A stretch of DNA of 64,000 nt from NCBI GenBank assembly GCA_903896505.1, contig CAITXU010000246.1:1-64000 (forward strand), written 5' to 3'. The notes beneath the pieces are model-generated. The model did no database searches. It saw nothing but the letters and a program-made list of their open reading frames with translations, and was not told the DNA's origin. Positions within the stretch are counted from its first letter, which is position 1. Each line of letters begins with the position of its first letter. This DNA is from an uncultured Verrucomicrobiota bacterium. GTDB taxonomy: Bacteria > Verrucomicrobiota > Verrucomicrobiia > Limisphaerales > UBA9464. A program made the position numbers and the translations under genes. Below are positions 30,026 to 34,398 of this stretch, in pieces.

Positions 30026-31138
30026 TCATGGCGTTGGAGCGGCCGCGGGTGGTAGGATGACCAGCCAAGTCACGAGGTCGAATTCGCTCTGGTGGGCGGT
30101 CGGTGTCTCCGCCGTCGTGGGGAGGACAGCACAGCGTGCGGTGGTAAGGTTTTTGGCCGCCTTGTCGGTAAACTCGACCGCGATGGAGTTCAGGGCAGCG
30201 GTGAGCAGGCCACTGTAGTGGGTCATGTCGGCTCCATCGTGGGTGCGCTGGTCGAACAGGTCGCACAAGTCACGGTAAGCTGAAGGCTGGCCTGCGGCGA
30301 GATTGCGAAGCAGGAGCATGGATTTTTTGGGCTGAGCGAAGCCCAGGCGCACGGTGCCATCGTCCTGGACCAGAATGAGGTAATAGGGTGCCAGGGGATT
30401 GAGCTGGGCGACGGAGGACAGGGGGGCCGGTCCCGCCTGCCCCGGGCTTCGAGCCGGGTGCTGTGTCGTGCCCCGATGGCGGAGGCAATAGAGGACTCCG
30501 GGGCGGGCGTCATCGAAATTGGCCTGGGCGGGAACAACGGCGTAGTGCCCCTCCCCGGCCTCTTCCAGAGTCTTGCGATTGGCGGCCAGGAACTGGAGGA
30601 GATCGAGCCGGAATTCGTCGAGGGAGAAATCGGTCAGCGATACGGAGTCGTCGAGGTCTTCCAGGTCGAGCACTTCGTCCCGCAGCCGCTTGAGCTGGCG
30701 GTCGCGGAAGAGGAGGTCTTCCTTGATCAGGTCGTCCAGCTGGGTGCGGTCGAGCAAATTATCGGTCTGGGTGGCGGTCAGGTCGACCAGTGCCATGCGG
30801 GACTCGACGCGGTGTTTGGCCGGACGCTTACGAACTTTGAGGTGCCCATTCAATTCGGCGGCATGAACCGCATCGGCAATATTGAGGCGGATTTCTTCGA
30901 TGTGAACTTTTGCTGACCTCAACTCTGCTTTATCTTGTAACGTGGAACCTCTACGTCTAGATTTCCTATATAAATGTCGCGTGTTATAGACACTTAACGC
31001 GAGGTAGCAATTGATATTTTCAGATGTAGAGGTCCCTCCGAGGATATTGGCGAATACATTGTATACAGGCCGCCAAGCATTTCTAACAGCTCCTGCGCCG
31101 ACTAGTAGAACTACCGGATTACCGAAGAGATTAGACAT
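30026..31138 (-). pseudogene. Chimeric frame: C-terminus of SNF2-type restriction/defence helicase joined to an unrelated N-terminus
   Basis: The frame is open for 370 aa but appears to be two genes joined. Residues from about 75 to the end resemble the C-terminal domain of large SNF2-like helicases encoded beside site-specific DNA methyltransferases: KHRVESRMALVDLTA, LDDLIKEDLLFRDRQLKRL, then LNPLAPYYLILVQDDG, AYRDLCDLFDQRT and FDLVTWLVI. The helicase ATPase motifs are absent. Residues 1-75 (VVLLVGAGAVRNAWRPVYNV) look like the nucleotide-binding start of a different protein, and this part of the DNA is visibly lower in GC. The assignment of the helicase part is from pattern memory. The product is probably non-functional. 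Confidence 0.6.
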
Positions 31139-31274: not shown

Positions 31275-31688
31275 CTAAGTTCTCAAAAGTAAATCGCACT
31301 GGCTGGCGATGATCGTGGCCTTCTCCTTTTGCTGTGCCTTGGTGAGCACGGGATCATGCTCAAACCGAGGCCACCCACGGATTGCAGCGTGACGATGAGG
31401 AGGCTCGGAAACAGCAAGGGTGAGGCCTGCTTCATGCGTTGCACTTGGGCGGAAGATGGCGGCTCCGTAAAACGGTCGCCCTACCAACGCCCCTGTCCCT
31501 ATCGTCCAAAGCTGATCCTCAGGTTTGGCTCCGTGCCGAAACACGGAGGTTTCCAAACTAGTAGTGCTCGGGAGAAAGGCGGACGGTTTAACCATCGTTG
31601 TGTTAAACTGGTTGCTCTGCGTCAGGAAACGACAGAGTTCCTCGCCATCAGAGATGACGTCTTCAAGCCCTGACGGAAGAACTCCCAT
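31275..31688 (-). CDS. Third protein of the TIGR04255 cassette (conserved hypothetical)
   Basis: 137 aa from the ATG at 31688, chosen because it starts GVLPSGLEDVISDGEELCRF and overlaps the preceding gene by 26 nt; the frame extends farther upstream without family-like sequence. Distinctive blocks are FLTQSNQFNTTMVKPSAFLP, ETSVFRHGAKPEDQLW and RHAAIRGWP, ending KAQQKEKATIIASQ. I recall these blocks from uncharacterised proteins that sit beside TIGR04255 genes. No catalytic motif is certain; the spaced His residues could bind a metal or nucleotide. It is cytoplasmic, with no signal peptide. Confidence 0.7.
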   Translation of the reverse strand: MGVLPSGLEDVISDGEELCRFLTQSNQFNTTMVKPSAFLPSTTSLETSVFRHGAKPEDQLWTIGTGALVGRPFYGAAIFRPSATHEAGLTLAVSEPPHRHAAIRGWPRFEHDPVLTKAQQKEKATIIASQCDLLLRT

Positions 31689-32172
31689 TGAGAAGGACTG
31701 ATCGGATGCCCTCCAAAACCATGGACGGAACTTCCCTTCCATCGAAAGAAGCCACGCCGTAACCTTTGTCCGAACCATTTAACCAAGAATATGCAAGGCG
31801 GTGAGTCTTGCCGACACTGAGGGAGAAAAGCCGGTTGCGCGATTGAATCCAATCGAGTGAGATCGACCCGTCGGGTTCTGGAGCAAATTCCGGGAAAGGA
31901 GCCCATCCAGGCAGGCAACGTAAAATTTGTTCCGCCGTTACTACTGCTGAAGGTTGCAGTCCAACAGCATCTTCCCCATCCCAACCGTTGCAGAAACATT
32001 CAGCGGCAAGAGCCCGCAATTCGGACTGAGCCTTTCGAAGGGGGCCAAAGCAAGCCTCCGATTTCTCGACATGAAATGCTACGACGCCCACTGCCTCGCG
32101 GCTTCTGGTTGCCACCTCCGAAACGGCGCTACTGTGGCGCACGTAACCACTCAGAAGAGCGTATGCGGTCAT
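31663..32172 (-). CDS. Second protein of the TIGR04255 cassette (GWDG/PEPDG conserved hypothetical)
   Basis: 169 aa from the ATG at 32172, which overlaps the TIGR04255 stop by 4 nt (ATGA); a start at 32199 is possible but less likely. Diagnostic stretches are CNGWDGEDAVGLQPSAVVTA, LPGWAPFPEFAPEPDGSI and SLDWIQSRNRLFSLSVG. This layout (GWDG, then PEPDG and a W-x-Q/Y-rich beta segment) recurs in proteins that accompany TIGR04255 genes, from my memory of such neighbourhoods. It has no signal peptide and no known enzyme motif. It is coupled on both sides to its neighbours. Confidence 0.72.
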   Translation of the reverse strand: MTAYALLSGYVRHSSAVSEVATRSREAVGVVAFHVEKSEACFGPLRKAQSELRALAAECFCNGWDGEDAVGLQPSAVVTAEQILRCLPGWAPFPEFAPEPDGSISLDWIQSRNRLFSLSVGKTHRLAYSWLNGSDKGYGVASFDGREVPSMVLEGIRSVLLNGSSSVRA

Positions 32173-32930
32173 TCCAAGGGGTGAAACAATTGCAGGCATT
32201 TTTCAGTTAGGCTTTTTAAGAATACCCGATTATTCAAACGCCGCAACGATTGAATTTGGCCCAATATCTGCTCCCACCCGTTAAGCTCTCTGGTGTTCAT
32301 GGAGACCGAGCTGATGTCCAGAATCACAGGCAAACGATCTCCTTCCAAACCTTGTGAAGCCATTACCCATTCGACGACCTCCCCAGTTTCCTTTTCCAAA
32401 GCTACCCTTTGGTCCAAAAATCGCAAAAAGCTGAGGGTATCTTTATCGGGAAGTAAGGGACTATGGACGAAGTAGTCGCTCAATTGCATCGGTAGCCCTT
32501 GCAAAACCGGCAACTGAAGCAGATTGATATAGCGGAGCCGAATGAGACGGATTTGGATCGGCAATGCCAAATCGACAAAAAGCCTCCATGCCCGCTCAAT
32601 TTCCGGAAGGCAGGCGTCTAATCCACTGTATGGGGCCAACCGATTGAACGAAAAGCCCTCCCGACGCACTTGAACGATTTGTTTCTCGTCTTCACTCACG
32701 TGCTGGTGAGCAGACACACCCAGTTCAGCGGAAGCATGCGTCGGTGTTCCCGCTTTCATCTCCAGGTGATGCGTGGCGATGATTGGTTTCCGAAGTTTGG
32801 GATAACCGGACAGAAAAGCCTTCTTGAAACGATCTTCCGACCTCGCCAGGTCGAAATCTGGCGGCAAATCACAGTCGATGTCCAAAACGACCTCAACGAC
32901 GGGCGAATTCCCAAGCTTCACTGGGTGCAC
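32169..32930 (-). CDS. TIGR04255 family protein
   Basis: 253 aa. It opens with a beta strand of the type NSPVVEVVLDIDCDLPPD, has RREGFSFNRLAPYSGLD (FS-x-NRL block) and IQIRLIRLRYINLLQLP (R-YIN block), the signature of TIGR04255 proteins, which occur sporadically across bacteria. Function of the family is not established. The gene begins 25 nt after the methyltransferase remnant and overlaps the second cassette gene (ATGA). This is the lead gene of a three-gene transcription unit inside the tRNA-Leu island. Confidence 0.8.
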   Translation of the reverse strand: MHPVKLGNSPVVEVVLDIDCDLPPDFDLARSEDRFKKAFLSGYPKLRKPIIATHHLEMKAGTPTHASAELGVSAHQHVSEDEKQIVQVRREGFSFNRLAPYSGLDACLPEIERAWRLFVDLALPIQIRLIRLRYINLLQLPVLQGLPMQLSDYFVHSPLLPDKDTLSFLRFLDQRVALEKETGEVVEWVMASQGLEGDRLPVILDISSVSMNTRELNGWEQILGQIQSLRRLNNRVFLKSLTEKCLQLFHPLE

Positions 32931-32955: not shown

Positions 32956-34007
32956 TCAAATACGGAACACCTTCATGACTTCGTCGCCGAGGTGGTTGAT
33001 CACTTTGACGGCGATGCGTCCGGAGTTGGGTTTTGCGAAGGGGCGGGAGGTGTCGTAGTTGAACGCGCAGGCGATCAGGACATCAAAACCGCCGTCCCCA
33101 GCCTCGCGGGCGGCTGAAACCAAGTCGGCGCGCTGGACGGTTCCGAATTCCGGTCCGATAAAGATGGCGGCGCGTTTCTCGACATCCCCTTCCAGGTACC
33201 GGCCCTCGGCACATACCAGGTAGCCAGGCCACGGGACCAGCGGATTGAAGCTAATGCGCCCGGCCTTGTGCGCCTGCTGGACCCCGGCAGACCGCAGGTT
33301 CTCCAGAATCATCTCCGGGAAGGTCTTTCTGGCCCGGTAATCGGGACCCCTTTCGTCGGCAGTGTCGATCAGTTCATCGTTTTCATCGACGCCCAGGACG
33401 CGATGGGGGGAGAGACTTTCCACCGTGAAGGGACCCGCCACGCGGACCTTCCTTTTGTCCTCATACGGCTTGTCGTAGAGGTATTCGAATTCTGCCTTGG
33501 CGGCGATGGAGGCATCGATTTCCCGTTGGCGGGCGATGCTGGCTTCCCACCAGGCCGCGTGGAGCTTTCGTGCCGCCTCCGACCATTTGGCGTCGGCTTC
33601 CCGGGGAATCTCCCACTCCTGCCAACTACTCTTCACGGCGGCGTTGAACTGCTCGCGCAACGGTTCGAGCGTCTTTTGCCACGTCTCCCAAATGACGTCG
33701 ATTTCGGCGTTGTTGGAAATCGCCTCAAGCGTGATGTGGGGGACCCGCTCATAGACAAAGCCGTGACGCACGTTATACCGGAACGCGGTCCCGTTAGGCG
33801 CAAATGAGGAACCGTAGGCCTCGACCTTCTTCTTTGCGCCATCGGGACTGTCGGAAAGGAGGTAGAACGGGTAGCGAGCGCCCATGATCCGGGCTCGTGC
33901 TAAAGCCAGTGCAACCCGGGACGTATCAATGGTGATCCAACGGCGCCCCATTGCTCGGCAACGTACGCAGATGTACCTGACCCGCATGTTGGGTCGAGCA
34001 CCAGGTC
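32956..34007 (-). pseudogene. Site-specific DNA (adenine) methyltransferase remnant, N-terminus lost and frameshifted
   Basis: The C-terminal two thirds remain: [20 protein letters not shown] (SAM motif I) near 33950-34007, then [20 protein letters not shown] from 33945 on, and a long tail ending LGDEVMKVFRI. Between the Trp codon at 33948-33950 and the next Arg the frame shifts by one base at a GGGG run (33946-33949); adding one G restores the natural EQWGRRW reading. The DPPY catalytic region and everything before motif I are absent, replaced by an integrase fragment. The type is the large beta-subgroup methyltransferase found with SNF2-type helicases in restriction-like systems. It is inactive. 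Confidence 0.8.
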
Positions 34008-34250
34008 TTCGGCAAGCTCGGCGAAGCGTTTGTTGCCCTGCTTGCCGGTCACAGGGTCCGGGTATCGGACAAGGTAGGAGACGTAGTCCTTCCCATCGAC
34101 GGTGATGGGGTTGGCGTAAATCTTGCCGGTGACTCAACCGACTTTGACCGTGATCGGAGCGGTGCGGGTCTTGGCGGGAAGTGCGGGAGCGACGGTGCCG
34201 GAAGTGGTCGAATTCAGACCGGTCGACGTGGTAGGCGCGGGCTTAGTCAC
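34008..34250 (-). pseudogene. Tyrosine recombinase (integrase) N-terminal remnant with internal stop
   Basis: The minus-strand frame from the GTG at 34250 reads a Thr/Pro-rich start (MTKPAPTTSTGLNSTT), then RTAPITVKVG, a TGA stop (34134-34136), and continues in the same frame as [20 protein letters not shown] and [20 protein letters not shown]. This is the pattern of the N-terminal DNA-binding (arm) domain of verrucomicrobial phage-like integrases: a short basic tail, KVG-x-V, Y-V-x-Y-x-D-x-GKR. It then runs into methyltransferase sequence, so the catalytic domain has been deleted. The start is 63 nt from the tRNA, the usual integrase position. Confidence 0.65.
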
Positions 34251-34307: not shown

Positions 34308-34335
34308 GCTGTTGGTGCCGACGGAGGGGGTCGAA
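34308..34335 (-). repeat. Proximal attachment site in tRNA-Leu 3' end
   Basis: A 28-bp segment identical to 25735-25762; it spans the last part of the T arm, the acceptor stem, CCA and 5 nt beyond. Confidence 0.85.
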
Positions 34336-34398
34336 CCCACACTCCCATAGGGAACCAGATTTTGAGTCTAGCGCGTCTGCCAATTCCGCCACGTCGGC
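34313..34398 (-). tRNA. tRNA-Leu (anticodon CAA)
   Basis: On the minus strand the acceptor arms GCCGACG and CGTCGGC pair (7 bp), the anticodon loop is CTCAAAA with CAA at the wobble position, the T loop is GTTCGAC, and there is a long variable arm as expected for a class II tRNA. The discriminator A is followed by a genome-encoded CCA. It is the integration target of the island to its left. Confidence 0.93.

Follow-up and report, generated by a model that had tools for sequence, protein, structure and literature searches.

A recurrent three-gene TIGR04255 cassette, often carried within restriction operons, as a candidate tripartite toxin-antitoxin-like system with a predicted ADP-ribosyltransferase fold

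The stretch of DNA analysed here (the window) comprises 64,000 nucleotides (nt) from an uncultured Verrucomicrobiota bacterium (GCA_903896505.1, contig CAITXU010000246.1), and on its minus strand, from 32930 to 31275, it carries an intact trio of overlapping genes arranged head to tail, which encode a TIGR04255 family protein, a WDG/PEPDG protein (hereafter the WDG protein) and a third small protein, P3. The trio recurs in a fixed order across distant bacterial phyla and, judging from its flanking genes and its tree, enters and leaves restriction-modification operons as mobile cargo. We give about an even chance to its being a tripartite toxin-antitoxin-like (abortive-infection) cassette that is complete in itself, moves horizontally and has an ADP-ribosyltransferase (ART)-fold effector.

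Results and Discussion

The three genes of the window are as follows.

32169..32930, minus strand: gene 1, TIGR04255 family, 253 amino acids (aa), GTG start
31663..32199, minus strand: gene 2, WDG/PEPDG protein, 178 aa, 31-nt overlap with gene 1
31275..31688, minus strand: gene 3 (P3), 137 aa, 26-nt overlap with gene 2

None of the three open reading frames (ORFs) contains an internal stop, and a single copy of the trio is present in the whole 5.36-Mb genome. An original prediction, made from the sequence alone, had described a tightly coupled minus-strand unit at this position, and the intact, overlapping ORFs bear this out; the 26-nt overlap it gave for genes 2 and 3 is exact when P3 is read from 31688, the start conserved in relatives, the longest ORF there opening at 31778. 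The overlap of genes 1 and 2 is also present, but the ATGA start proposed for gene 2 (32172) is less likely than one at 32199, as the conserved N-terminus (MPEP...) lies upstream of it. The possibility that the small proteins are debris of one broken gene is ruled out, each belonging to a separate conserved family.

When 84,980 species genomes were scanned with an alignment of TIGR04255, 53 loci were returned (numbered with the prefix L). Custom hidden Markov models identified the complete trio, with its gene order unchanged, at 46 of these, which places the association far beyond chance; of the seven that remain, three are truncated at the end of a contig (L054, L086, L090). Complete trios were found in 14 named phyla: Verrucomicrobiota, Pseudomonadota, Methylomirabilota, Lentisphaerota, Kiritimatiellota, Thermodesulfobacteriota, Nitrospirota, Chloroflexota, Hydrogenedentota, Acidobacteriota, Planctomycetota, Gemmatimonadota, Armatimonadota and Spirochaetota. 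The suggestion that this trio recurs is borne out. A separate search for P3 in 388 genomes of the window's phylum gave 11 positive genomes, eight with the full trio, two with WDG and P3 genes but no TIGR04255, and one with a WDG gene and a P3 fragment. The WDG gene stood beside P3 in all 11, and P3 without WDG was never seen among the 388; together with the two genomes that hold this pair only, this is suggestive of an antitoxin-toxin pattern.

Structure models were made for P3 and for the TIGR04255 protein. That of P3 (pLDDT 95.5, pTM 0.88) was matched in VIA by ART-fold proteins in 27 of the 28 top rows, the next, clearly different fold appearing at Z 2.9. The Z scores were 6.9 for Tpt1/KptA, 6.2 for Tse2, 5.8 for HopF2, 4.3 for DarT, 3.6 for RES and 3.1 for ParT, and a Tre toxin and Arr-2 were also among the ART-fold rows. 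On this model P3 quite probably adopts an ART fold, and we are less confident that it is catalytically active. Across 51 sequences, remote members included, R20 is conserved in 50, R51 in 48, H100-A101 in all 51 and W106 in 49, with R20 and H100 kept even in very remote members. P3 had no significant Pfam match, to any ART family or otherwise, and searches of Pfam, NCBIfam and PADLOC gave nothing useful for either P3 or the WDG protein; the weak Pfam/NCBIfam names returned (DUF7392, TIGR03083, DUF7335) fell far under the cut-offs and were disregarded, and sequence-profile searches of the PDB gave chance matches only.

The WDG protein, which we propose to be an antitoxin or adaptor, is characterised by conserved WDG and PDG motifs, W117, P158 and an MPEP-like N-terminus, and no close relatives of it were found in the plasmids or virus contigs searched. 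WDG genes also occur without TIGR04255 or P3 at L018 (9373-9840) and L020 (6718-6999), beside other defence genes (GmrSD-AlbA and a Hachiman-like helicase, respectively), so the domain appears to be in wider use.

The product of gene 1 matches the NCBIfam family sporadTIGR04255 over almost its whole profile (positions 3-251 of 252; E 4.3e-25; 89 bits, the cut-off being 30), and no close relatives of it were found in the phage records searched. The order of elements in its model (pLDDT 93.2, from a 48-sequence alignment) reads as two TBP-like halves, that is, a predicted duplicated TBP-like fold, and the matches in Foldseek and VIA were to SAMDC, TBP and guanidino-kinase folds (E 1.3e-3, Z up to 8.7). 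Such matches indicate shape, not function. SecB was not among the listed matches, a missing row being no proof of absence. A match to PDB entry 9hnh was set aside as weak; it falls on a stretch present in two copies, and the entry resembles a repeat protein. The structure prediction that had been suggested as a check thus delivered an ART-like fold for P3, with Z at most 6.9, and for TIGR04255 a TBP-like shape but no function. We propose that TIGR04255 acts as a constant sensor or neutraliser.

In other TIGR04255 operons P3 is replaced. The third gene encodes a PIN protein in L040 (E 2.8e-11) and a HEPN protein in L027 and in L100, the latter on a Thermus plasmid (E 4.2e-6), whilst a further third-gene family carries an invariant NTCD motif (L031 2620-3243, L033 503-1057, L099 4692-5321) and has no Pfam match above the cut-off. 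Remote homologues of both WDG and P3 follow TIGR04255 in L042 and, weakly, in L036. A constant TIGR04255 with a variable effector resembles the toxin-antitoxin-chaperone systems (PMC11618068). It is tempting, though doubtful at present, to view TIGR04255 as the hallmark of a new, modular type of immunity cassette, in which a constant TBP-like sensor/neutraliser would be combined with interchangeable antitoxin-effector pairs (the ART-like P3 with WDG, PIN, HEPN or the uncharacterised NTCD-motif protein), the whole being self-mobile and docking in a restriction cargo slot as a breach alarm.

The genomic settings of the trio also support the original suspicion of a defence context, as trios are found repeatedly inside restriction-modification operons across phyla. 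This association rests on recurring flanking genes and on a tree test. About 18 of the 46 loci, short contigs revealing only part of the operon, hold the trio inside one type III-like operon in the order Res, Mod, trio, RelE-UvrD helicase, and a complete six-gene operon is present on a 55-kb IMG/VR viral contig (L123). Res (approximately 1020-1120 aa) has intact Walker A and PD...ExK motifs in relatives, and Mod is an N6/N4 methyltransferase of approximately 930 aa ([12 protein letters not shown]) with its motifs likewise intact; Mod was scored as intact on the presence of DPPY and an FxGxG-like motif, and Res on that of a helicase plus PD-(D/E)xK. The gene following the trio encodes a protein of approximately 700 aa in which a RelE/HigB-like segment at the N-terminus precedes a UvrD helicase. 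Pfam gives weak support for RelE (E 0.007), yet this N-terminus is strongly conserved, and the proteins of L123 (7681-9783), L066 (8856-10964) and L067 (11685-13778) are apparently fusions of a toxin domain and a helicase. Genes often overlap where the trio sits between Mod and RelE-UvrD.

Elsewhere, trios were found in type I loci (L072, L078, L085), adjoining a type IIG enzyme (L080 and L019, which denote one and the same place) and behind a GmrSD-like gene (L073), and lone trios adjoin gyrB (L052, L064), mutS (L059), carB (L079) and a gene for a PEP-utilising enzyme (L084). In three genomes (L052 1-2484, L064 1687-4968, L120 3893-7214) gyrB is immediately followed by a TIGR04255 cassette, two different cassette types being represented, which suggests that the 3' end of gyrB is a favoured insertion site. 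On a tree of the concatenated trio proteins the Res-Mod label requires 11 changes, at least six of which are forced by well-supported branches. The near-identical sister trios of L064 and L066 illustrate this, the former lying beside gyrB and the latter within Res-Mod-UvrD. The slot itself is also variable: related Mod genes in the window's phylum carry other cargo there or none, and in L124 Mod is followed by RelE-UvrD with no trio. Since the trio enters and leaves the operon and the same slot holds other genes or none, the site behind Mod appears to be a cargo site and the trio mobile cargo, and it is less likely that the trio is a permanent component of the Res-Mod system. The sites downstream of Mod in L124, L126, L128, L136, L138 and L152 differ in cargo, in the manner of a defence cargo slot; read by eye, this includes apparent OLD/AAA-type ATPases, a MORC-like ATPase and, in L152, an apparent HigBA-like pair.

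For the tripartite cassette favoured here we infer toxicity and catalysis by P3, an antitoxin role for its partner, sensing and an anti-phage function. The WDG protein would hold P3 inactive, as its immediate antitoxin or folding partner, and TIGR04255 would either stabilise the WDG-P3 complex or read an infection signal, the role taken by CmdC in CmdTAC, a toxin-antitoxin-chaperone phage-defence system and the precedent for a tripartite reading (PMC11618068). Release of P3 would stop growth through an NAD+-dependent modification, P3 presumably using NAD+ to modify nucleic acid or protein, or else destroying NAD+. In Res-Mod operons the trio would probably serve as a fallback that fires once restriction is breached, in the way that PrrC does beside EcoprrI.

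Several observations weigh against this proposal. The ART assignment of P3 is one of fold, with a top Z of 6.9 and a best Foldseek E of 0.18 (to Tpt1), and Z scores below 8 may reflect a common arrangement. P3 showed no profile similarity to KptA (hhalign with a two-sequence KptA profile, probability 0.1), and the candidate residues R20, R51 and H100 were not placed on any known ART catalytic motif. The HEPN proteins of L027 and L100 seem, when read by eye, to be without the canonical RX4-6H motif. TIGR04255 is not recognisable as a SecB chaperone or as an antitoxin. Finally, about half of the trios lie outside the Res-Mod operon, several beside housekeeping genes, and so a role as guard of restriction-modification cannot be general.

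The most probable alternative, although we consider it unlikely, is that the trio serves the restriction machinery as an accessory: TIGR04255 would be a TBP-like subunit for DNA binding or assembly, the small proteins would regulate Mod, Res or UvrD, and no toxin would be involved. The tight and often overlapping embedding that about 18 loci and the virus contig show between Mod and RelE-UvrD would fit this, as would the TBP-like fold and the presence of trios within type I loci. However, near-identical trios exist outside such operons (L064 by gyrB against its sister L066), the Mod-UvrD pair of L124 manages without a trio, and TIGR04255 pairs elsewhere with PIN or HEPN genes. Somewhat less probable again is a plain addiction module for plasmid or island maintenance, without phage defence, whose placement among restriction genes would be the stacking of selfish elements; the toxin-antitoxin-like gene arrangement, the plasmid copies of TIGR04255 operons, the toxin-antitoxin pairs neighbouring the trio in the window and the keeping of the trio after Mod broke are all compatible with this, whereas the repeated, independent association with restriction-modification and the viral-contig copy fit defence better, and many copies are chromosomal, beside housekeeping genes. 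Least probable is that P3 is no toxin but an enzyme that uses NAD+ to process RNA or DNA ends, in the manner of Tpt1/KptA, and that the trio serves to repair nucleic acids or counter damage to them; although its closest structural matches are RNA 2'-phosphotransferases (Z 6.9), it is without sequence-profile similarity to KptA, matches the ART half only, and has a strict WDG partner and PIN/HEPN alternatives that point to effectors.

The trio was also compared with named systems. Like CmdTAC, the trio has three small co-encoded proteins, one with a predicted ART fold, a third partner beyond the presumed toxin and antitoxin, and a phage-defence setting; unlike it, no SecB-like protein is recognised (TIGR04255 modelling as TBP-like), the gene families are different and the trio is often found in restriction operons. 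The antitoxin of DarTG, DarG, is a macrodomain protein. DarTG has an ART-fold toxin with an adjacent partner, as is proposed for the trio, and DarT is among the structural matches of P3 (Z 4.3), but no trio protein gave a significant Pfam match, to a macrodomain or otherwise, and there are three genes, not two. The gene arrangement resembles that of type II toxin-antitoxin systems such as VapBC, with small overlapping genes and the presumed antitoxin preceding the toxin, and one TIGR04255 operon indeed ends in a PIN gene; here, however, a constant third partner precedes the pair, and P3 belongs to no recognised toxin family. The best fold match of P3, Tpt1/KptA (94 aligned residues), has only 7% identity to it, and P3 has no N-terminal lobe and different conserved residues. 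The anticodon nuclease PrrC is linked to the EcoprrI type I restriction-modification locus (PMC2610378), and is an effector within a restriction operon, plausibly released upon restriction failure, as is proposed for the trio, but it is a single ABC-ATPase-like nuclease, whereas the operons that the trio joins are mainly type III-like and some trios stand by themselves.

The trio is best filed as kin to the tripartite toxin-antitoxin and abortive-infection systems, yet as a member of no named one. PADLOC-DB 2.0.0 gave no match to any trio protein at E <= 1, and a literature search, with subscription journals outside its reach, found no paper naming TIGR04255 or describing the operon layout; the claim that the system is undescribed therefore holds within these sources. 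If the proposal is correct, bacterial immunity would gain a tripartite, toxin-like defence module not described before, in which other effectors can take the place of the ART-fold one, and PrrC would be joined by a further clear example of suicide-type modules residing in restriction operons. Abortive infection has long been suggested as a backup for failed restriction, an idea that would become testable across many phyla, and TIGR04255, a broadly distributed family known only by number, gains a concrete, testable role.

Genomic neighbourhood of the window copy

In the window the trio is found amid the wreck of an operon, with the following neighbours.

32956..34137, minus strand: Mod remnant, type III-like DNA methyltransferase (PDLC03632, E 1.8e-154, profile 507-804 of 983)
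30026..31138, minus strand: 370-aa ORF, C-terminal HKD+Snf2-like remnant (PDLC01075, E 1.7e-10, profile 752-922 of 948)
34313..34398, minus strand: tRNA-Leu (CAA), directly upstream of the Mod remnant

No intact Mod or Res accompanies the trio; a tblastn search with the Res of a relative found no match in the window, and the window holds no credible UvrD remnant. In the nearest relative, L081 (approximately 77% aa identity), an intact 935-aa Mod lies directly upstream of the trio and the UvrD gene is also broken, the trio being intact in both. Relative to L081, the Mod remnant has lost its 5' part and carries an in-frame internal deletion of 131 codons, whose junction (33049-33069) shows a short shared sequence of about 6-7 nt, as expected for a microhomology-mediated deletion. 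The HKD+Snf2-like ORF, a weak match and not part of the trio, occupies the position of the RelE-UvrD helicase of relatives and is probably a remnant of another defence helicase. The tRNA-Leu is a possible island boundary. The remnants of restriction genes that had been reported beside the trio are thus real, Mod upstream and the HKD+Snf2 C-terminus downstream.

Between the window and L081 the dN/dS values of the trio genes were 0.14, 0.17 and 0.19 by NG86 and 0.21-0.24 by YN00, indicating purifying selection on the intact frames, although dN/dS alone cannot date that selection to after the breakage of Mod. Relative-rate tests with five outgroups showed no significant acceleration in the window lineage (unique changes 23 against 15, 23 against 21, 21 against 21, 23 against 20 and 31 against 20; all chi-square <2.4). 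With its frames intact, its dN/dS low and its rate unaccelerated, the trio looks to have been retained without its host operon, and the suggestion that selection keeps it is consistent with these values. Of the toxin-antitoxin pairs said to lie nearby, two are supported, on the same strand as the trio at 26673-25946 and 28346-27539 (UPF0175/DUF3368 and RHH/PIN).
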